Positions 16,375 to 31,849 of a stretch of DNA of 42,642 nt are shown one piece after another. The stretch's first letter is position 1, and every line of letters begins with the position of its first letter. Source of the stretch: a virus; IMG/VR virus record IMGVR_UViG_3300037314_000074, positions 1-42,642 of that record; one strand, written 5' to 3'. A program made the position numbers and the translations under genes. Under the pieces are notes generated by a model. The model was not told the origin of the DNA. It saw nothing but the letters and a program-made list of their open reading frames with translations, and did no database searches.

Positions 16375-16400
16375 GTTAACAAGTACAATTACATGTTAAC
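16375..16400 (-). ncRNA. hairpin over the tnpB stop codon, candidate omega RNA scaffold end
   Basis: On the minus strand GTTAACATGTA pairs with TACTTGTTAAC (11 positions, one U-U mismatch, 4-base loop). TnpB guide RNAs are known to derive from the 3' end of tnpB and the element end, so this hairpin is a candidate part of the RNA. The element boundary, and therefore the guide, cannot be fixed from sequence alone. Confidence 0.4.
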
Positions 16401-17759
16401 AAATGCACTCTTGATTTTGTCAAGAATGGGACTATCTACCAAAGCTTTGAGAAGAATTCCCAAAGCACCATTAAGATCACGATCCATCCATTCTTGTGTG
16501 CTAGGTGATTTAATCTTTTTACGACCACCTAAGTTCTCGACGATTTCTCCCGTCCATGAAACCGTTTTGCTAGTGTAGGATTCATTTACCAATAAAACAG
16601 TCTTATTACGTTCTTTTGCTTTGTGCAACAAAAACTGTTGAAATCGGTAATGACACCATGTAAGCATAGCTCTTACCGTTTTAGAACTGAGTTTACGACC
16701 AGCTCTAGAAGACATTTTGCTGGTTTCAAAAGTTGGCAGAAGGATGACATCAAACTCTTTAGTTAACCAGTTGGCGACTTGATGGTGAACTTCTTTGATT
16801 AAATTGTCAATCTTCGTTCTCATTCTATCACAGGCTTTTTTAATCCTGCGTTTCCTTCTACTAGTCGCTTTTGATGCCTTAGAGAGTAATTGGTCTAAAT
16901 AATGACATAGACGTTGGATACGGGAGAAGTCTCCATCAGCTAGCTTTCCAAAGCAAGTCGGAGAATAAAAGGTCAAAAAAGTACGCACACCTGGATCTAG
17001 GGCTACAATCCCACCTTGACTCTCAGTGGGAGTTACTTGTGTTTCAGTTGAAACACATAAGAAGTATTGACCTCGATGTAGAATTAATCTTGAATCTTTA
17101 ATGACTTCTGGTAGGCGTTCTCTATAATTTAGAACACCTAATTTGGTATGGTAAACGCCTTTTTCTTTTATTGCACTAGAAGGAACATAGAAAGATTGAA
17201 CTCGATCTTTTTTCGACCTAAACTTCACAAATGACGGTTGACCATTTGTGGTCTTTTTCTTTGCTTCCCTTACCGCTGTACAAGCATCTTTGACTGCGAT
17301 ACTTTTGATTTGGTACGGCACTGTTTTTGCCCATTCTGGAAGATTAGACAGAATACCACCCTTGATTTCCTTCCAGTTTGCTTTCGTATTTGGTTGTTTA
17401 AGATACTCCACTGTCTTATTGTAAACATATCTGGAAACTCCGAACCAGTGCTTTAATATAGCCTTCTGGGTTGTCGTCGGGGTAATACGAATCTTTTTTG
17501 ACTTTTTAATAACTTCGTTTTCCGTGCATTCTACAGCTAAAGATGTGCAGAATTGATAGTAGGTCTTCGGTAAGTTCAGTTTCGGGGGACTTACCTTTAT
17601 TGAGGAGAACCACGATTTCTCCACTACTGGTTTCGATGATAAACTCGATAAGTCGATCCCGATGGGACAGTACAAGTTTGACACTATCTCCTTACAAACA
17701 TCGTTATAGTAAGGTTTTAAGTCTTTTTCGTTTGTAATTGATTTTTCCTGCTTTTGCAT
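16389..17759 (-). CDS. tnpB: TnpB-type RNA-guided nuclease (IS605/IS607 OrfB family), 456 aa
   Basis: An N-terminal extension of about 88 residues precedes the usual TnpB start (IRITPTTTQKAILKHWF, residues 90-106). The RuvC residues appear intact: Asp255 in ALDPGVRTF, Glu345 in LPTFETSKM and Asp426/Asp428 in MDRDLNGA. The zinc-finger cysteines usually lying between the second and third RuvC motifs are missing: SYTSKTVSWTG stands where SKTCSxCG would be expected. No TnpA or serine recombinase is adjacent. The gene is visibly richer in GC than its neighbours, suggesting recent acquisition. TnpB proteins cut DNA next to a short target-adjacent motif using the element-derived RNA. Confidence 0.85.
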   Translation of the reverse strand: MQKQEKSITNEKDLKPYYNDVCKEIVSNLYCPIGIDLSSLSSKPVVEKSWFSSIKVSPPKLNLPKTYYQFCTSLAVECTENEVIKKSKKIRITPTTTQKAILKHWFGVSRYVYNKTVEYLKQPNTKANWKEIKGGILSNLPEWAKTVPYQIKSIAVKDACTAVREAKKKTTNGQPSFVKFRSKKDRVQSFYVPSSAIKEKGVYHTKLGVLNYRERLPEVIKDSRLILHRGQYFLCVSTETQVTPTESQGGIVALDPGVRTFLTFYSPTCFGKLADGDFSRIQRLCHYLDQLLSKASKATSRRKRRIKKACDRMRTKIDNLIKEVHHQVANWLTKEFDVILLPTFETSKMSSRAGRKLSSKTVRAMLTWCHYRFQQFLLHKAKERNKTVLLVNESYTSKTVSWTGEIVENLGGRKKIKSPSTQEWMDRDLNGALGILLKALVDSPILDKIKSAFVNM

Positions 17760-18078: not shown

Positions 18079-18543
18079 AAATTAAGTGTCCTATTCAACT
18101 CTACAATTTCATTGTAGCTAGAAAATTTTTATCTGTCAAGTACATTTTACTGTAAATGGCTTTTATTTACTTTTTAGTCGCTAATGCCTTGTATATCAAG
18201 GGGTTTGATTATCCGAAAGGTAATTTTCTTTAGCCGTCAAAATAAGCTGTATATAATGATTTCAGCCATTTCCCTTTTCAATGTGTTTACATCTTAAATG
18301 TTACCATTTGCAATATAAATTTATAGTTACCAAATTCATCTGAAGTATGCCTAGAAAATTTTTATCTATTAAGTACATTTTACTGTAAATGGCTTCTATT
18401 TACTTTCTTGGTCGCTTATGCCTTGTATATCAAGGGGTTTAATTATCCGAAAGGGTATTTTTTATTGGTCGCCAAAATAAGTTGTATATAACGATTTCAG
18501 CCATTTCCCTTTTCAATGTGTTTACATCTTAAATGTTGCCATT
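18079..18543. other. gene-free interval filled by a tandem duplication
   Basis: Apart from the promoter of the BRO-N-like gene this interval consists of the two copies of a 233-bp unit. The palindrome CCTTGTATATCAAGG recurs in both copies. No ORF is convincing. Confidence 0.6.
18111..18139 (-). promoter_or_regulatory. sigma70-like promoter of the BRO-N-like gene
   Basis: Minus-strand TTGACA (18139-18134), a 17-base spacer and TACAAT (18116-18111). The -35 lies inside copy A of the tandem repeat; in copy B the equivalent hexamer is TTAATA, so only copy A is an active-looking promoter. Confidence 0.75.
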
Positions 18544-18586
18544 TTACAATATGAATTTATAGTTACCAATATCATCTGAGGTATGC
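18118..18586. repeat. tandem duplication of about 233 bp, including the terminase 3' end
   Basis: Copy A (18118-18350) and copy B (18351-18586) align throughout with scattered substitutions and a few small indels. Copy B ends inside the terminase gene and carries its last codons. Copy A ends with a diverged version of the same codons (reading HTSDEFGNYKFIL without a stop). The unit therefore arose by duplication of the terminase end plus its downstream region. Confidence 0.8.
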
Positions 18587-20061
18587 CTAGATGATACGGT
18601 TTTATAGAAGTCGTTAATGTCAAAGTTTTCTTGTTTATCCCTTGGCTCATTGTGGTGCCTAGTGTATAAACAGTACCGGATAGCATCGGGGTAGTGGTCA
18701 TCTTCTTTTATTGGTTTATCTTCCCAGCTTCCATCTCTATTTTGTTTCCATGAGTAGGCGTTAAGCTCTCCCCAAATCAAATCCATATCGTTAGCATTTG
18801 GATCTACAACTAATCTACCCTGGTTAAAGAAACGATGTACTAGGTTAATACCACCCAGCACTTTGGTATTTGCCGATTTTATTTTAGAAGATCCTAAAGT
18901 AAATCTAGCAGTCTTAGCTATTCCTGGTTGATCATGTGGTAAGTAAAAATACTCAATATTGTATTTAGAATCTAATTGTTTCATGGCTTGTATAATTTCG
19001 TCTGGAGTACTCTCAGACTTAGACCATCCTTCTACAATAGTATAAGCAGATGCGTATTTATACTTTTCTCTAAATTCCCATTGGTCATTTTTGCTTAAGA
19101 CATGTTCTGATAGGACTACAATACGGGGGTTATGGTAGCCAAAATCAACACCAGCATAATAGGCAACAGGAGTACCCCAATCTGGTTTTCTCAGGTGCCA
19201 ATAATCATCTAAATCGTAAATGGCACCTTCTAGTGCTACCCACTCTCCTAGCAGATTTCTTTGACCAAAAGGAGTTAAGTGGTCATGCAGAAAATACCCA
19301 CTAGGATCTTTTTCACCATTTCTAATTTTATAGATTTGTTCTTTAATCCAGTTTCTACTGACACCAGGTCTAGTATAGGCTGATAAATTATTTACTAGGT
19401 AGATTTCGGGGAGATTATTGTTACTGATTGAGTTTGAAGTATAGGAGATATGTCCCGGTTTAGGATCTTCTATAAATCGTTTGTATAAATAATGATTAGT
19501 ACTTTTGGGGTTACAAGCTAGAATTAATTGCCGTTTATCAAAAGTATTATCAACGTAGGATTTGTACTCATCAGGTAAAGAATCATAATTAGGTGGATAG
19601 AGTAGTTCACCAGATAAACGCCCCTGAATCATACCTAGTGATTCTTCAGATAATTCAGCAGCTTCATCTATGAAGCCATAGGTTAACTCAATGGACCCTA
19701 GTCTATCGCTAAATTCAGCACCAATAAAAGAAATGGTAGAGCCATTTATAAACTCGGCTTGTAATTGAGTATTGCTAAAGTATTTAAGCCAAGTTGGATG
19801 TATTAGCTCTAGGACTGTAACCAGGGTACTCCGTTTTAATGACGCTAAGTGTTGCCTAAATACTCCTACTTTAGACTGAGGAAAACACAAGGCATGACGT
19901 AGAGCCATTCTGGCACCAATTTCAGATTTACCCGAGCGATAGGCACCAGAAAGCAAAATAAACGAATTATCAAAATCGTTCCATGCTTTTAATTGCCCTG
20001 GTGTGTAGTAACCTTCTGACCATCTTTTGAATCCTCTACCTATATATGTGTCAAATCTCAT
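18544..20061 (-). CDS. terL: terminase large subunit, 505 aa
   Basis: The ATPase domain has Walker A GAYRSGKS (residues 39-46), Walker B YGFIDE (128-133) and a coupling motif LILACNP (179-185). The C-terminal nuclease domain has Asp306 in YYAGVDFGYHNP and a later acidic pair in DHYPDAIRY. Both domains are complete. It packages DNA through the portal using ATP and cuts the concatemer. It is the last gene of the minus-strand tube-chaperone-terminase unit and starts 2 bases after the preceding stop. Confidence 0.93.
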   Translation of the reverse strand: MRFDTYIGRGFKRWSEGYYTPGQLKAWNDFDNSFILLSGAYRSGKSEIGARMALRHALCFPQSKVGVFRQHLASLKRSTLVTVLELIHPTWLKYFSNTQLQAEFINGSTISFIGAEFSDRLGSIELTYGFIDEAAELSEESLGMIQGRLSGELLYPPNYDSLPDEYKSYVDNTFDKRQLILACNPKSTNHYLYKRFIEDPKPGHISYTSNSISNNNLPEIYLVNNLSAYTRPGVSRNWIKEQIYKIRNGEKDPSGYFLHDHLTPFGQRNLLGEWVALEGAIYDLDDYWHLRKPDWGTPVAYYAGVDFGYHNPRIVVLSEHVLSKNDQWEFREKYKYASAYTIVEGWSKSESTPDEIIQAMKQLDSKYNIEYFYLPHDQPGIAKTARFTLGSSKIKSANTKVLGGINLVHRFFNQGRLVVDPNANDMDLIWGELNAYSWKQNRDGSWEDKPIKEDDHYPDAIRYCLYTRHHNEPRDKQENFDINDFYKTVSSRHTSDDIGNYKFIL

Positions 20062-20063
20062 AA

Positions 20064-20267
20064 TTAACCTGTATTAGGACCAGTGGGGATAGGTACAATA
20101 TTAGAGTTATTGCCTTTTGCCATTTGTTCTTCTTTTTGTTTTTCATCTTCATATTGATTAATACGTAACACCAAACCACCAATTTGAGCTAAATCTTTTG
20201 GTGCTAATTCCTCATCAGAAGATAATAGATTATATAATCTTTGTTTTATTAAGTATAAATTATCCAT
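20064..20267 (-). CDS. hypothetical protein, 67 aa, possible terminase small-subunit substitute
   Basis: A helical protein with a flexible Gly/Pro-rich tail, ending 2 bases before terL. The position is that of a terminase small subunit, but it is much shorter than known ones (usually above 100 residues) and has no clear helix-turn-helix, so the call is tentative. Confidence 0.45.
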   Translation of the reverse strand: MDNLYLIKQRLYNLLSSDEELAPKDLAQIGGLVLRINQYEDEKQKEEQMAKGNNSNIVPIPTGPNTG

Positions 20268-20273
20268 TTTATC

Positions 20274-20950
20274 TTATCCTTTTTCTACATTTACTCCTAA
20301 AGCTTGACTAAGATCATTTTCTTTGATTTCACTTTGACTTACTTCATCTCGCCATTTATTGTACTTAATCTTTTCGAGCTTGTCTGAATCTTGTAAAATC
20401 TCGACATAACGTCTATAAGCCAATTGAGTAATAATCCTAGACAAAGGGATATTTTGGCAAGTGGTTTCACCATCCAATTCATTGTAGGCAAATATTCTCG
20501 CAACATCAAAATCGTTAGGGTTGTCAAGCTCACTAAATGGATTGTCTCTACCGTCGAAGGGATCTGATCCATCTTCGACGTAGGGAACTTTGGGTAGGTA
20601 CTATGTAGACCAAAAATCACCCCCGGTATTATATTACCATCTTTATCTTCAGTACTTAAAAACAGAATTTGCATTTGCTCAGGTGTTAAATAATTTGGGT
20701 CTATGCCTACAATATCACAAGCCGTATCCATCAAATTCCTAAACTGTGTATTATATATATAATTATTAACAAAATCGTCGTCACTACCTACTTGCATTGC
20801 TAAAATCCAATTTCTATAGAAATTTTCGTATTCTACCATTGGTAGTTCATATATTGTTTGAACATTTTGTTTTTTATCCATCACAGTTATAATACCTGTG
20901 GATGCATAAATTCCTGCATTTTCATTATTATATTCAAATTCCATAGCCAT
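20274..20950 (-). CDS. tail assembly chaperone, -1 frameshift product (gpGT-like), 225 aa
   Basis: This protein is read from the ATG at 20950 in frame 0 to codon 121 and then in the -1 frame from 20588 to the stop at 20274. The -1 part (104 codons) reads like normal protein, with FDVARIFAYNEL followed by a helical end. The switch occurs at the heptamer CCCAAAG. The -1 frame is closed by a TAG at 20603-20601, just two codons upstream. Tail chaperones of long-tailed phages are classically made this way from a gene directly downstream of the tail tube gene, as here. Confidence 0.75.
20339..20950 (-). CDS. tail assembly chaperone, unshifted product (gpG-like), 203 aa
   Basis: This is the zero-frame reading of the same gene. 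The first 121 residues are shared with the frameshift product and look globular and acidic. The last 82 residues come from continued zero-frame reading over the -1 coding region and look less natural. In lambda-like phages the zero frame usually ends soon after the slip site, so the long tail is odd. If only the fusion is functional, a one-base deletion is the alternative explanation. Confidence 0.6.
   Translation of the reverse strand: MAMEFEYNNENAGIYASTGIITVMDKKQNVQTIYELPMVEYENFYRNWILAMQVGSDDDFVNNYIYNTQFRNLMDTACDIVGIDPNYLTPEQMQILFLSTEDKDGNIIPGVIFGLHSTYPKFPTSKMDQIPSTVETIHLVSLTTLTILMLREYLPTMNWMVKPLAKISLCLGLLLNWLIDVMSRFYKIQTSSKRLSTINGEMK
20588..20594 (-). promoter_or_regulatory. -1 ribosomal slippery site CCCAAAG
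   Basis: The heptamer is phased as C CCA AAG in the zero frame (codons 120 and 121), the X XXY YYZ arrangement that allows two tRNAs to slip back one base. Confidence 0.75.
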
Positions 20951-21022: not shown

Positions 21023-21766
21023 TTATTGACGAGTAATAACAGCAAAGTTACCATTATTATCTCGTAATGCAGTAGCAGTCAAAGATGCACTAGCTGCTTC
21101 TTCTCCTACAGACATTTCCAAATTACTATCAATACGTGCCCTAGGGATAGCGATTAGCAAAGTATCAGGACAACCAAAGAAACGTCCATATAGACCAATT
21201 TCACCCAACTTACTGCCCGATCCTAGTGCGATCTCGTTATGAGTACCACTAGCGGCTTCTTTATAAGAAATGATTAGTTTTTGACCTGCTGTGATATCAC
21301 CGTTGGGATCGGTAACTGTGATAGTACCAGCTGAATCGTCGTAAGTCACTTCATAATGTTTCCCATTTTCATCGGCAACAAGGATACTATCGCCATTTGT
21401 GTTTACCGGTGTGAAATCAACTGAGATGGTAGCATCACCAGTATCAAGATCCGCATCTTGCACTACATAGCTATAGCTTTTACGTGGGTTAATTGACCCA
21501 TCACGTGCTAGAGTATTAGATGCAGCTTGTAGGAAACTCCATGCTAGGTTAGAAGATCCTAGTTGCATACTACAACTTTCCCTAAATGGACAAGATGCAC
21601 TAACACCTTTAATTCCTTGATTGCTGAAAGTTTCACTCATTACACTTTCTGAAGTGTATGTGAAAGTAGCATTTTCGATTTTATCTGCAAACGGTAACAT
21701 TTTCGCTGTTCCAGATTCTGTATAGGTGATTAATCCCTCTACAAAACCAGTAATAATACCTGACAT
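21023..21766 (-). CDS. major tail tube protein, 247 aa
   Basis: A beta-rich protein with an N-terminal MSGIITGFVEGLITY segment, a middle Ig-like or loop insertion (about residues 95-160) and a conserved-looking C-terminus. Size, composition and its position before a frameshifting chaperone identify it as the tail tube subunit. It has a late promoter and a GGAGG ribosome binding site. Confidence 0.75.
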   Translation of the reverse strand: MSGIITGFVEGLITYTESGTAKMLPFADKIENATFTYTSESVMSETFSNQGIKGVSASCPFRESCSMQLGSSNLAWSFLQAASNTLARDGSINPRKSYSYVVQDADLDTGDATISVDFTPVNTNGDSILVADENGKHYEVTYDDSAGTITVTDPNGDITAGQKLIISYKEAASGTHNEIALGSGSKLGEIGLYGRFFGCPDTLLIAIPRARIDSNLEMSVGEEAASASLTATALRDNNGNFAVITRQ

Positions 21767-22526: not shown

Positions 22527-24803
22527 ATGAAATCAGCAAGTACGTTTAATGCAGCATATTATCGTTCTTATAGTCGTCTATCTTTGGACGGAGTACGAGA
22601 GAATTATGAGGATACAGTTAACAGGGTGGTAGATGGACTACAGAAAGTTGGCAAATTAGATAAAAATGAAAAATCTAAATTGAAAAGTGCAATGTTAAAG
22701 CTAGAAGCTACGGCATCAGGTCGTGCTTTGTGGTATGCTGGAACCAATTCTAGTTTTAAACCGCAGAATTACTATGGACTATACAACTGCGTTAGTATTC
22801 ATACTGAATCGTTAGCGGATATGGAGATGCTGTTTTATCTCCAGATGTTAGGATGCGGTGTGGGAGCAGTATTAGAACAAAAACTGGTAGATAAACTACC
22901 TAAAATTGAAAACTATATTCATCTTCAATGGGATGGTGAAATTGGCGATAAGGATCGATCCCAACGTCAAGAAAACACTACTGTAGAATGTTTAGATAGG
23001 AATACAGTTAAAATCACAGTAGGAGATAGCAAAGAAGGCTGGAGTAAATTTTATCGCCAGTTATTAGAACTAGCTATTGATTGTCAATACTGTGAACAAA
23101 ACGGTATTGACCATTGTGGAACTGTAACGGTAATTGTAAATATTTCCAATATCCGCAAAAGTGGAGAGAAGTTGAAAGGATTTGGGGGGACTGCCAATCC
23201 CACATACTTTAAAAAGTGTTTTGAAAAGGTAACTAAAATCCTGAATAAAGCAGCAGGACGTTATCTGACCCAGCTAGAAGTTACTCTACTTATTGATGAG
23301 CCATCCCTGCTTGTCGTATCAGGAAACGTGCGTCGATCAGCGGGCATAAGGCAATATGATTACAACTCGCCATTGTATAAACAAGACTTATGGCAACCTG
23401 GTGAAGATGGAGTGTGGCGGATCGATCCTGAACGTGATGCATTACGTATGGCTAATCACACTCTAAACTTTCATCGTAAGCCATCATTTGAAGAAATTCA
23501 GGATAAAGTACAATCCCAATTTTATAGCGGTGAAGGTGCCATCATGTACACGCCAGAAGTGTTAGCCCGTGCTAATGCAGACTTGTTGCCTAACCGTGAA
23601 TTGAAGAATGAATTTATTCAGGAATACGAGAAAGGAAACGGCAAAGAGTACCTATTAAGTCTAGATCCTGAAATGGATAAACATGAACTAAACCACCGTA
23701 TTAATCGATACGGCACAAATCCTTGTGCGGAGATAGAAGGGAAAGATTTCCTTTGTAACCTATCTGAAGTATTTTTGAATAATCTAGATCCTGCCAATTT
23801 AGATCAACAAAAAGAAGCATTTGAAGCCGCAGCATTAGCAGTAGCTGCATTACTACATCAGAATTTCACAGATGAAAAAATGCAGTATTCTCGTGAATTG
23901 GACCCTATTGTAGGGGTAGGTATTACAGGTCTATTTGATTTCTTTGTGAATGCAATTGGTGTGGATTATGCTCAGTGGATGGTAGAAAATAGACCTATGG
24001 ATGATGAAACACGTGGTCCAGTGTATGCCGAACTAGAACAACGGTATTTAAATCTATGGTATCGTTGGGTAGAAGATACAATTACAGAGTACTGCAATAA
24101 ACATGAACTGAAAAAGCCAAATCGTTTCACCTGCGTTAAGCCTAGTGGTACTCTAAGCCTATTAACTGGAGCATCACCAGGTTGGCACCCACCCAAAGCA
24201 TCACACATGATTCGTCGTATTACTTTCAGTAAAGAAGATCCAATTGCTATGGCTTACAATGCAATGGGTTATCGAATCACTCCAGCACACAGCGATACAG
24301 ATGAAAATGGCAACCTATTAGACGATCCTTGGGATTCGCGAGTAAATGAATGGTTGGTAGAAATTCCAATTACAACGACTTGGGGACATCTAGAAGGCGC
24401 TGATGAGGTTAAACTAGAGAATATTCCAGCAACAGCACAAATGGGACTATGGAAACAAGTCCAGATCCATTGGACTGGACATAACACAAGTGCCACTATA
24501 GAATTCAGGGAAAATGAAATTGACAGTTTATCTCAATGGATCTACGATAGTATTCAAAACAATGATGGTGCCTATACTAGTGTTGCAATGCTAGCACGGT
24601 TTGATAATTACCAATCGTTCCCACGTCTACCATTTGAGCCAATTAGTAAAGAAGTATACGAAAAATACTTGGCGGAAATTGAACAAAACCAAGTGTTTGA
24701 TAATTTTGATAAAGCATTAGCCTACTTTGACCAGTACTATCTAAATCAAGACCAGGTGCAAGGTCCAAGTGGTTGTGATTCTGATAAATGCCTAATTAGC
24801 TAA
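22527..24803 (+). CDS. nrdJ: adenosylcobalamin-dependent (class II) ribonucleoside-triphosphate reductase, 758 aa
   Basis: The enzyme reduces ribonucleotides to deoxyribonucleotides with a B12-derived radical. Visible signatures are CVSIHTES near residue 90 (first redox cysteine), the NPCAEI loop near residue 395 with the radical-site cysteine, and a C-terminal GCDSDKC pair that recycles the active-site disulphide. The length is close to the monomeric Lactobacillus-type enzyme (about 740). There is no ATP-cone. A clear AAAGGAG site precedes the ATG. With the ThyA-like protein it would feed phage DNA synthesis. Confidence 0.9.
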   Translation: MKSASTFNAAYYRSYSRLSLDGVRENYEDTVNRVVDGLQKVGKLDKNEKSKLKSAMLKLEATASGRALWYAGTNSSFKPQNYYGLYNCVSIHTESLADMEMLFYLQMLGCGVGAVLEQKLVDKLPKIENYIHLQWDGEIGDKDRSQRQENTTVECLDRNTVKITVGDSKEGWSKFYRQLLELAIDCQYCEQNGIDHCGTVTVIVNISNIRKSGEKLKGFGGTANPTYFKKCFEKVTKILNKAAGRYLTQLEVTLLIDEPSLLVVSGNVRRSAGIRQYDYNSPLYKQDLWQPGEDGVWRIDPERDALRMANHTLNFHRKPSFEEIQDKVQSQFYSGEGAIMYTPEVLARANADLLPNRELKNEFIQEYEKGNGKEYLLSLDPEMDKHELNHRINRYGTNPCAEIEGKDFLCNLSEVFLNNLDPANLDQQKEAFEAAALAVAALLHQNFTDEKMQYSRELDPIVGVGITGLFDFFVNAIGVDYAQWMVENRPMDDETRGPVYAELEQRYLNLWYRWVEDTITEYCNKHELKKPNRFTCVKPSGTLSLLTGASPGWHPPKASHMIRRITFSKEDPIAMAYNAMGYRITPAHSDTDENGNLLDDPWDSRVNEWLVEIPITTTWGHLEGADEVKLENIPATAQMGLWKQVQIHWTGHNTSATIEFRENEIDSLSQWIYDSIQNNDGAYTSVAMLARFDNYQSFPRLPFEPISKEVYEKYLAEIEQNQVFDNFDKALAYFDQYYLNQDQVQGPSGCDSDKCLIS

Positions 24804-27680: not shown

Positions 27681-28055
27681 ATGGAATTTGAAAATTTACC
27701 AGTAAATTCGTATTTATATAGTAAGGAACTATCGATCAGCCTTTATGATGTATTTGTAAAGGCATTTAAAAGTAAAGATAATGGAAATATCTATATTGAT
27801 TTGGATTCATTAGCTAAAATTAGTGGTGCTACTACTTCTGAAGTAGACACATTCACCACTAATAGGGTTACAGAATTAGGTATCACAGAAGATGAGTATT
27901 TATACTCACACACTGATGCTGAAGGTAGTTATAGGTTGGCTAAGTTAACTGAAAGTGGAAAATTTTTGTTATATTTATTAGATAATTCTTTTACAGAAGC
28001 TGAAAAACATTTAGAGTATTTGAGCAATAAAGGCATAAAAGGAGAGTATAGCTAA
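27681..28055 (+). CDS. hypothetical tail operon protein, 124 aa
   Basis: Residues 20-60 (IDLDSLAKISGATTSEVDTF) look like a helix-turn-helix, and the C-terminus is helical. Its stop codon overlaps the tape measure start. In standard gene order a tail chaperone would stand here, but the frameshifting chaperone is elsewhere; this may be a regulator or tail accessory protein. Confidence 0.55.
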   Translation: MEFENLPVNSYLYSKELSISLYDVFVKAFKSKDNGNIYIDLDSLAKISGATTSEVDTFTTNRVTELGITEDEYLYSHTDAEGSYRLAKLTESGKFLLYLLDNSFTEAEKHLEYLSNKGIKGEYS

Positions 28056-31000
28056 TGAGTGTTCAAAGTGTATATGAGATAATGATGAGATTAGAAGGTG
28101 ATGAGAATGTAAGAAATAGAGTACAAAATATAGGTCGATCTTTGTCTATGACAGGTGCTGCGATGACGGCATTTTCAGCTAAGACGGCTCAAATGGCTGC
28201 TGAGTATGAGGAAAATTTGGCTAGGCTTAAATCTGTGTCTACTGAAGCTACCGGGAGTACAGAAGAATTCAGCCAAGCTTTATTCAACTTGGCAGATAAA
28301 ATGGATGGAGCTATTCAGGTAAATCAAGCTGCCAAAGCAAGTTACGATATTTTAAGTGCTGGTATTAAAGAACAAGAAGCTGTACTAGAACTATTAGAAC
28401 AAGGGCAAAAAACAGCCATTGGTGGTATGTCTGAATTAGGTACTGTTACAGATGCTACTACATCTGTTATGAATAGCTATAGTGCCCAATTACAAGATGT
28501 GGGCACAAAATCACAACAAGTGAAACATGTGATGGATCTAATGGTACAGACTCAAAATCAGGGAAAGATCACCGCTGACCAATATGCGAGACAAATTGGG
28601 AGTGTGGCAGGCATTGCTAGTAATGCAGGTGTTAGTTTAATGGAATTAAATGCAGCTATTTCAACTGCTACTGCTAAAGGTCAACAAGCTGAAGCTGCAT
28701 TTAGTGGTTTAAGGGGTATGATTAGCAATATTATTAAACCTAGTGGTCAAGCTAAAGAAATGGCAGATAAACTAGGTATTGAATTTAATGCAGCTGCACT
28801 AAAAGCAAAAGGTTTAGATGGAGTGCTTCAGAGTATTGTTCAGTCAGGTGGTGATACTTCTGAAGCTATGGCTAAGCTTTTTGGTGACGTAGAAGCACTG
28901 GCTACGGCACAAAATTTAGTATCAAATAATGCTAAAGATTTTAACGAAAACTTAAAGGCTATGGGAGATGCTGGTGGTGAAGTAGCGAAAGCATTTAGAG
29001 ATGTGGAACAAACAGCAAGTCAAAAGGCACAGAGAGCTTTCAATAAATTACAAAATAATTTAGTAGAATTTGGTCAAGGTGCTTTAGTAGCGTTTGAGCC
29101 TGTTATAGAAGCAGTAAATAATCTATTAGATGCATTTAATTCTTTAGACCCAGCAACTAAACAAATGATAGGAACTACAGTAGCATTAACAGGTGCTGCT
29201 ACAACTTTAGCAGGTGGGTTAACAACATTAGTCTCTACTTATAAAACTTTATCAAGTGCTGTTACTGCGTTTATTCCTTTAGTTACTAAAGCTACCACTG
29301 CATTAAAGGGCATGAGTGTTGCTAATGTGACAGCAAGATTTAGTACTTTAACTACTACATTAGGAACTAGTACAGCTGCTGTAAAAGCATTTATTGTAGC
29401 GTGGGCACCTTTAGCTGGTACTTTGGCAGCTGCTGGTGGTGCTATATTTGCTTTAAATCGTCACATGAAAAACATGAATGAAGAAATGGAAAATCTAGAA
29501 AAGATTGGAAATCTCGAAGAAATTGGACCTTTAATTTCTAAAACTAATCAACTTGTATCACAAATGAGAGAAACAGGAGAAGCATTACCTGATGAGAAAT
29601 TTAATAGATGGTTACAGACATTAAAACAAGCCAAATCTGAAATAGGTGCTAATACTCAATCGGGTAAAATATTACAAGATACAATTGACGCTTTAAAATC
29701 CAAACAACAGGAATACACACAAGCTCAAGAGAAATCAAATCAAGCTATGGACCAATCTTCAAACAAAGCTAAAGAAGCTGGTAGAAGTTTTGAAGATTAT
29801 AAAAAATCTGTAGAAAGTACTATAAGTGCAATACAAAAACAAGCAGACTTAGATACCCGTAAAGTAGATTTAAGTGATGAATCTGAATCTACTAAAATAC
29901 AACGAAAACTAGAAATAAGAAAACAAGCCACTGAAAAACAAATCAAATATCTTAAAGATTTAGCTAATCAGTCTCAAGCTAGTGCTGAAACTAGGATGGA
30001 AGCAGAAAGGAAAGTACAAGAAAAGAAAATACAACTACAAGAGCAAACACAGCAAGCACAACAAAGATTACAAGAATTACATAATCAACGTACTTTAGCA
30101 TTACAAGAACAAAAAGTAGCATCGATGAAAGCTCAATGGGAAGCTGAAGGAAAAGGGTTTCTAGAGACTTATGAACAACGAAAACAATTAGCACGTGAAT
30201 CTTTCCAAGTAGAAAAACAAATAATGCAAAAACGAATTCAAAATGCTGCTAAAGGTAGTGCCCAAAGAGCTAAATTAGAAAAAGAATTAGCACAAAAACG
30301 ACAACAATATGCACAACAAGTAAATCAACTAGAGGAGCAATACCAAAGAGAACAATTAAATAGAATTAGAGAACAAGCACAAATACGTAATGCACAAAAT
30401 CAACAACAACTAGCACAATTACAAGCTCAATGGAAACAAACAGGAGCAACTATACTTCAAACCTACGAACAACGTAGACAAATAGCACAACAAACTTACC
30501 AATCAGAAATACAAGCTATACAGCAAAAATTACAAGTAGTAGAACAAGGAAGTGCTAGAGAAGCTGAATTACAACAACAATTAGCTGAAGCTAAAAGAAA
30601 TCAAATTCAACGATTAAGTGAATTAGAAAATCAATATTATCAAGCTCAAGCTGAAAAACAACGACAAGCTATAGAAGCTGAACAAAGAAGATTACAATTA
30701 GCACAACAACGTTCTGAGATTCAAGCACAGGAATTCCAAGTACAAAATCAATCTATTCAACAACAAAGTTCTCTACTAAGTGATATCCAAAATAAACTTA
30801 ATTCTCAGAATACGTCTTTAGCTGCTAGAAAAGAATTAGTAGGATTAGTAGAACAACTTACAGGTCAAACACTTAGAAATCAACAAGGTAGTTTAAGTGT
30901 AGGGCAAGCACAACAACAAATACAATCTACCTTAGCTAGTCTAGAACAACGTAAATTACAGTTAAAAATTAAGCAACTTAAAAATGACAGAGAACAACTA

Positions 31001-31849
31001 AAAGTAGCTAATGAGATTAAACAATTGGATCTTAAAGAAGAATTAACAGATATTCAATCAAAAATTAAACAAGCAGAAAATCAAGAGGAAAAACAAAGAT
31101 TACGACAAAGAAAACAAACTGTCAAACAAAGACAACAATTAACCGAACGTAGGGCACAAATAAAAAGAAAAGGAATTAACCAGCAAATTGAAACTACTAA
31201 ATTAGAAAAAGAATTAGCTGAAATAATAGCTAATAATGATAATTCTCAAACTTTAAAAGAAGCATCAGAAAGGATGGTAGAGGCTGCTAGAGAATCAGGC
31301 AGGGTGCAAACAGATGAGTTACAAAATCTACTACAACGTGGTATGATTAGCCGTGATGAATATCAACAAATAATGGATAGGCAAAAACAAGCTATAGAAC
31401 AAAATAGCAATAAAGAAAAACGAGCTATAGATAGAAATACTCAAGAAACATCTAATGTGTCTAGTGGCGTTTCTCAATCCAATCAAAAACTAAGTGAAAT
31501 ATCTAGGAATACTAGACCTAGTAACAATAGACAATCTAGTCCTAATCAATCTCAATCTAGACAACCTATGCAAATACAAGGTTTCAATAGGTTATCTCAA
31601 GCCACAGCACATATAGCAGATAATACTCATCACACTAATGCTAAATTAAGTAGAGTTGATGTACATCTTAAAGATTTAAAATCTATTGGAAATAATATTT
31701 CTAATGGTGTTTCAAGTATGAACAACCATATTTCCAATCTTAGGTCTGAAGTAGCAACTCAACTTAATAATTTACCTTCTAGGATAGGTAGTCAAATACC
31801 AGAACCTAGAATCATTCAGAGACGACCTAGTGGCAAAGATAAAAACTAA
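28055..31849 (+). CDS. tape measure protein, TP901 type, 1264 aa
   Basis: The N-terminal 350 residues match the TP901-type tape measure layout (repeated ADQYARQIGSVAG- and GVSLMELNAAIS-like blocks). Hydrophobic segments occupy about residues 370-410 and 440-470. Residues 560-1100 are an almost continuous Gln/Lys/Glu-rich coiled coil. The protein sets tail length and occupies the tube lumen. Using the usual estimate of about 0.15 nm per residue, the tail would be near 190 nm. Confidence 0.92.
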   Translation: MSVQSVYEIMMRLEGDENVRNRVQNIGRSLSMTGAAMTAFSAKTAQMAAEYEENLARLKSVSTEATGSTEEFSQALFNLADKMDGAIQVNQAAKASYDILSAGIKEQEAVLELLEQGQKTAIGGMSELGTVTDATTSVMNSYSAQLQDVGTKSQQVKHVMDLMVQTQNQGKITADQYARQIGSVAGIASNAGVSLMELNAAISTATAKGQQAEAAFSGLRGMISNIIKPSGQAKEMADKLGIEFNAAALKAKGLDGVLQSIVQSGGDTSEAMAKLFGDVEALATAQNLVSNNAKDFNENLKAMGDAGGEVAKAFRDVEQTASQKAQRAFNKLQNNLVEFGQGALVAFEPVIEAVNNLLDAFNSLDPATKQMIGTTVALTGAATTLAGGLTTLVSTYKTLSSAVTAFIPLVTKATTALKGMSVANVTARFSTLTTTLGTSTAAVKAFIVAWAPLAGTLAAAGGAIFALNRHMKNMNEEMENLEKIGNLEEIGPLISKTNQLVSQMRETGEALPDEKFNRWLQTLKQAKSEIGANTQSGKILQDTIDALKSKQQEYTQAQEKSNQAMDQSSNKAKEAGRSFEDYKKSVESTISAIQKQADLDTRKVDLSDESESTKIQRKLEIRKQATEKQIKYLKDLANQSQASAETRMEAERKVQEKKIQLQEQTQQAQQRLQELHNQRTLALQEQKVASMKAQWEAEGKGFLETYEQRKQLARESFQVEKQIMQKRIQNAAKGSAQRAKLEKELAQKRQQYAQQVNQLEEQYQREQLNRIREQAQIRNAQNQQQLAQLQAQWKQTGATILQTYEQRRQIAQQTYQSEIQAIQQKLQVVEQGSAREAELQQQLAEAKRNQIQRLSELENQYYQAQAEKQRQAIEAEQRRLQLAQQRSEIQAQEFQVQNQSIQQQSSLLSDIQNKLNSQNTSLAARKELVGLVEQLTGQTLRNQQGSLSVGQAQQQIQSTLASLEQRKLQLKIKQLKNDREQLKVANEIKQLDLKEELTDIQSKIKQAENQEEKQRLRQRKQTVKQRQQLTERRAQIKRKGINQQIETTKLEKELAEIIANNDNSQTLKEASERMVEAARESGRVQTDELQNLLQRGMISRDEYQQIMDRQKQAIEQNSNKEKRAIDRNTQETSNVSSGVSQSNQKLSEISRNTRPSNNRQSSPNQSQSRQPMQIQGFNRLSQATAHIADNTHHTNAKLSRVDVHLKDLKSIGNNISNGVSSMNNHISNLRSEVATQLNNLPSRIGSQIPEPRIIQRRPSGKDKN

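Follow-up and report, generated by a model that had tools for sequence, protein, structure and literature searches.

The window, the whole stretch of 42,642 nucleotides that was analysed (IMG/VR record IMGVR_UViG_3300037314_000074), carries a gene that very probably gives rise to a pair of tail assembly chaperones by programmed -1 ribosomal frameshifting of the G/GT type, in a cyanophage-like virus; we put the probability of this reading at close to nine in ten (0.88). Most ribosomes would stay in the zero frame and make a 203-residue G-like protein, and a minority would slip on C CCA AAG, aided by a hairpin downstream, to make a 225-residue GT-like protein whose C-terminal domain would come from the -1 frame. 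By analogy to phage lambda, the shared N-terminal domain would form a coat on the tape measure protein, and the -1 domain would bring in the subunit of the tail tube. We infer the frameshifting itself, the ratio of the products and their function as chaperones. The features of the gene are the following.

20950..20339, minus strand: zero-frame open reading frame of 203 aa
20588..20950, minus strand: shared N-terminal domain, G-like, residues 1-121, supported by A-HIS1 ORF086, phrog_37800 and AlphaFold2
20588..20594, minus strand: slippery heptamer CCCAAAG, in phase, with homologous in-phase sites in contigs L008 and L010 and in phage A-HIS1
20545..20586, minus strand: predicted RNA hairpin, a likely frameshift stimulator (MFE -17.0 kcal/mol, z -3.2)
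20274..20594, minus strand: T-like domain in the -1 frame, 106 codons counted from CCC AAA plus the stop, with homologous -1 frames in relatives
20339..20587, minus strand: long zero-frame tail, 82 codons plus the stop, overlapping the T-like domain, stop-free and open in relatives

An earlier, sequence-only reading had proposed a chaperone with an in-phase slippery site, and its counts proved exact. The heptamer CCCAAAG lies at 20594..20588 on the minus strand and is read as C CCA AAG at codons 120-121, following the X XXY YYZ rule in the phase of the zero frame. The -1 frame opens two codons before it and continues for 104 codons after the Pro-Lys pair until a stop at 20274-20276, while the zero frame runs on for 82 codons, giving products of 203 and 225 aa. 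Together with G_GGA_AAG, C_CCA_AAG belongs to a class of heptamers that is highly shift-prone in Escherichia coli (PMC5009743). The ATG of the gene is preceded by a Shine-Dalgarno-like AGGAG.

The main evidence comes from relatives, which were reached through the neighbouring structural and terminase (terL) genes and not through the chaperone itself: searched alone or as a two-row profile, the window protein retrieved no relatives from IMG/VR or from 84,980 genomes. A scan of IMG/VR with the structural protein led to the contigs L004, L008, L010 and L011/L012 (a further contig, L009, is near-identical to L008, with 2 differences in 10 kb); two genome-contig scans and a plasmid search added no further relatives. 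The N-domain also matches ORF086 of the Acaryochloris phage A-HIS1 (41.8% identity over 69% of the query, E 8e-9) and phrog_37800, a family annotated as of unknown function (E 5.7e-16). In three of the four relatives with the gene an in-phase heptamer stands at the aligned place, CCCAAAG in L008 and L010 and GGGAAAG in A-HIS1; it is missing from L004, where the two halves are fused. The N-domains of the four split phages are 31-81% identical, and the predicted frameshift fusions of the relatives would measure 209 (L008), 208 (L010) and 216 aa (A-HIS1). The -1 frames of the window, L008 and L010 are homologous, and a profile built from these three finds the corresponding part of L004 (E 1.9e-6) and, weakly, that of A-HIS1 (E 0.013). 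Upstream of the site, substitutions between L008 and L010 follow the third position of the zero frame (0.25/0.09/0.53 by codon position). Since the heptamer occupies a homologous place in all four split phages and is followed by homologous frames, it is more than a chance occurrence. In L011 and L012, which are fragments, no chaperone was detectable in the records searched; there the structural gene, a small gene and the tape measure gene are adjacent, and none was found between them.

A predicted hairpin accompanies the site in the window. Its main stem begins 4 nt past the heptamer, and only 0.26% of the 5680 45-nt segments of the record reach an equally stable fold. Local stems are possible a few nt past the site in L008 and L010 too; the local RNA folds of L008, L010 and A-HIS1 are weaker than that of the window and unexceptional against their own genomes.

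The zero-frame tail had been called unusually long, and here the data go beyond that claim: its length is real, common to the relatives and statistically unexpected. The distance from slip to stop is 246 nt in the window, 252 nt in L008, 252 nt in L010 and 135 nt in A-HIS1 (82, 84, 84 and 45 open codons), as compared with means of 26 nt in 2,476 SEA-PHAGES genes and 36 nt in the Xu set (PMC10274946). We asked whether the -1 protein together with codon usage would by itself leave the zero frame open. Under a codon model that takes the next base into account, and whose stop density in that frame (0.0902) reproduces that of the real genes of the window (0.0888), the probability of a stop-free tail is <5e-5 in the window, 5e-4 in L008, 0.018 in L010 and 0.21 in A-HIS1; when the codons of the segment are instead shuffled among themselves, a stricter test, the values are 0.009, 0.027, 0.035 and 0.14, respectively. 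The relatives are the fair test, because the window was chosen for its long tail and they were not. Without the window their combined P is 2e-4 (model) or 0.007 (shuffle), values that are somewhat too small as the relatives share ancestry, although identical residues of L008 and L010 have the same codon hardly more often than chance predicts (0.41 against 0.35). An empirical count is in agreement: among 82-codon stretches of the window's genes, 21 of 8173 are open in that frame.

At the level of amino acids, L008 was compared with L010. As controls, 15 blocks of these same two contigs were used. The overlap block has no alternative-frame stops in either contig, and every control block has at least 2 in each. 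Its third-position change is 0.43 (controls 0.49-0.67) at a coding identity of only 0.50, and its alternative-frame similarity reaches z 3.7 (controls -0.9 to 2.0, with one block at 0.27 identity). Pairs that include the window are marginal, with z 2.2-2.4 and controls up to 2.5. Compared with simulated stop-free sequences, the excess similarity of the tails is significant for L008/L010 (BLOSUM P<0.001) and reaches P about 0.03 for the window pairs; this comparison was made without matched controls, and we rely instead on the 15-block and window-pair tests, which have them. The L008/L010 substitution patterns are typical of dual coding and are fair, not conclusive, evidence for selection on both frames, in a signal that rests on three or four sequences and to which A-HIS1 adds little. 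We consider it tentatively, at somewhat less than an even chance, that the region past the slip is truly dual-coded, yielding two chaperones of similar size with different selected C-termini and not a short G with an extended GT. Judged from its evolution, the odds are about even that the tail would be a second, dual-coded C-terminus of the major product and not read-out junk; its role would perhaps lie in contact with the tape measure protein or in self-assembly. AlphaFold2 places two helices in the tail at pLDDT of about 71-78, a score given no weight because short spurious sequences can also score high (PMC13294457).

The tail may instead belong to an ordinary G/GT gene in which selection acts on the -1 frame only, the zero frame having stayed open through luck or common descent, an explanation that we regard as less likely than not but far from negligible. 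Long tails do occur: the zero-frame product of SPP1, gp17.5, with 173 aa of which the first 112 are shared with gp17.5*, continues for about 61 residues beyond the slip (PMC6316719) and provides a partial precedent. The heptamer of SPP1 is a different one, UUUUUUC. The open run of A-HIS1 is not significant (P 0.21, as above), and the tails showed no known fold or family in the searches made. Against an accident stand the very low probability in the window, the significance of L008 and L010, which were not selected for their tails, and an amino-acid similarity between these two above what the -1 frame forces.

Alternatively, the zero frame might be kept open for translation only, so that unshifted ribosomes stay on the mRNA up to the neighbourhood of the genes that follow, which would prevent polarity or promote coupling, and the peptide itself would have no function. 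This would fit the position of the zero-frame stop, close to where the -1 frame ends in the window, L008 and L010, as well as the fact that the signal is strongest in the depletion of stops. We nonetheless think it unlikely: the excess similarity of the tails persists against simulated sequences that are themselves stop-free, and in A-HIS1 the zero frame ends less than half-way along the -1 frame.

Far less probable is a pair of overlapping genes that are translated independently, the second from a start codon of its own. A-HIS1 is indeed annotated in this way, as ORF086 and ORF085, and TTG or GTG codons are present inside the -1 frame. In the window, L010 and A-HIS1, however, the first 32 codons of the -1 frame contain no ATG, GTG or TTG; the first possible start is 32-39 codons inside, within or after a conserved motif, so a separately started product would miss the beginning of that motif. 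L004, moreover, has both halves as one protein. These observations make a separate initiation of the second half unlikely to be used.

The least probable explanation, that a mutation or a sequencing error has shifted the frame of a gene meant to be read as one, draws on L004, whose two halves lie within a single 209-aa frame without an in-phase heptamer, and is very nearly dismissed by four phages of separate origin that are split at the same place with a classical heptamer, both frames being intact, a shared split that independent errors would not yield. The sequence-only reading had named just such an uninterrupted relative as what would speak for a deletion or error; the relative exists, yet with four phages slippery at that very position an error in the window is very unlikely. 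L004 is the outlier among the relatives and seems to be a natural fusion of G and T; over 99 codons, its frame matching the zero-frame tail contains 11 stops. Its single frame might also stem from a faulty assembly of the contig. In phage TP901-1, which shares the heptamer GGGAAAG with A-HIS1 and whose mutants revealed the roles of gpG and gpGT, an engineered gpG-T fusion led to particles that look whole but are non-infectious (PMC4493119), in contrast to the natural fusion in L004. As a natural case, L004 could show whether a G product of its own is needed at all.

The setting of the gene agrees in part with what had been claimed for it, namely that it directly follows the tail tube gene. It does follow a structural gene; the identity of that gene as the tube is our inference, and no tail-tube family or PDB chain matched it. 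The neighbouring genes are listed here.

21023..21766, minus strand: virion structural protein, putative major tail (tube) protein (phrog_2729 'virion structural protein', E 8.9e-13)
20064..20267, minus strand: small gene, 67 aa, between the chaperone and terL; resembles, by eye, genes of L004 and L011
18544..20061, minus strand: terminase large subunit, next downstream (phrog_2, E 1e-35)
28055..31849, plus strand: tape measure protein (phrog_1533, E 3e-61)

Homologues of the structural gene precede the chaperone in L004, L008 and L010 and lie near it in A-HIS1. The tape measure gene of the window is on the opposite strand, about 7 kb from the chaperone; in L010 the structural gene is followed by the chaperone, terL and the tape measure gene, in this order. 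The 67-aa gene has no family match. Its apparent kin (L004:6438-6689 and L011:4014-4259) share by eye a motif resembling K/Q-DLA/IA-x-GGL/GNL-VLR, and it adjoins terL in the window and L004 and the tape measure gene in L011. Elsewhere in the window, an IS605-type TnpB (16389..17759, minus strand; PF07282 E 5.9e-14, PF12323) is located between terL and a neck-like gene. At 18118..18591 there is a tandem-like duplication of about 235 nt (pieces 89-95% identical, spacing 233-236), placed just after terL, with the second copy running into the 3' end of terL. A B12-dependent ribonucleotide reductase (22527..24803, plus strand; PF21995, PF02867, PF17975) is followed by several small ORFs.

Searches with the chaperone against Pfam, NCBIfam and PDB, made with shallow models, gave no match to a known tail chaperone, and structure searches of the PDB gave no credible match. 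This weighs against the main reading, as do the distant tape measure gene on the opposite strand, the unexceptional RNA folds of the relatives and the purely fused form in L004. AlphaFold2, run on an alignment that omitted the A-HIS1 row, predicts the N-domain (residues 1-120) at pLDDT of about 73-91. Two BFVD entries without names matched, A0A125T2X5 (E 6.5e-7) and G9BWF7 (E 1.3e-4, 216 aa). By guess, the latter was equated with ORF054L of PaV-LD (L031; 33229..33879, minus strand), a hypothetical protein that also has 216 aa, the size of a fused chaperone, and lies beside terL; its sequence showed no significant match to the profiles, and it is only a lead.

Taken against known systems, the gene resembles lambda G/GT in its in-phase heptamer (lambda's own GGGAAAG is the one found in A-HIS1), in a -1 domain fused to a common N-domain and in its place after a virion structural, putatively tube, gene. 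It differs in that no sequence similarity to lambda was found, in its 82 zero-frame codons past the site, and in being followed by terL and not by the tape measure gene. The lambda scheme proposed earlier is supported, with site, phase and -1 domain kept in three other diverged phages; it is the best reading because the site and -1 domain are conserved, three of the four phages have no early start codon, and the window has its hairpin. A-HIS1 ORF086/ORF085 (phrog_37800) is a true relative with the heptamer at the same place, differing in its 45-codon tail and in being annotated as two hypothetical proteins without a frameshift.

The finding gives phrog_37800, a cyanophage family of unknown function, a likely role together with a recoding mechanism, and the two hypothetical ORFs of A-HIS1 would become one frameshifted gene. 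Selection on the tail, if real, would leave the customary picture of a G protein that stops soon after the slip incomplete. Frameshift predictors that give weight to a close zero-frame stop would overlook genes of this kind.
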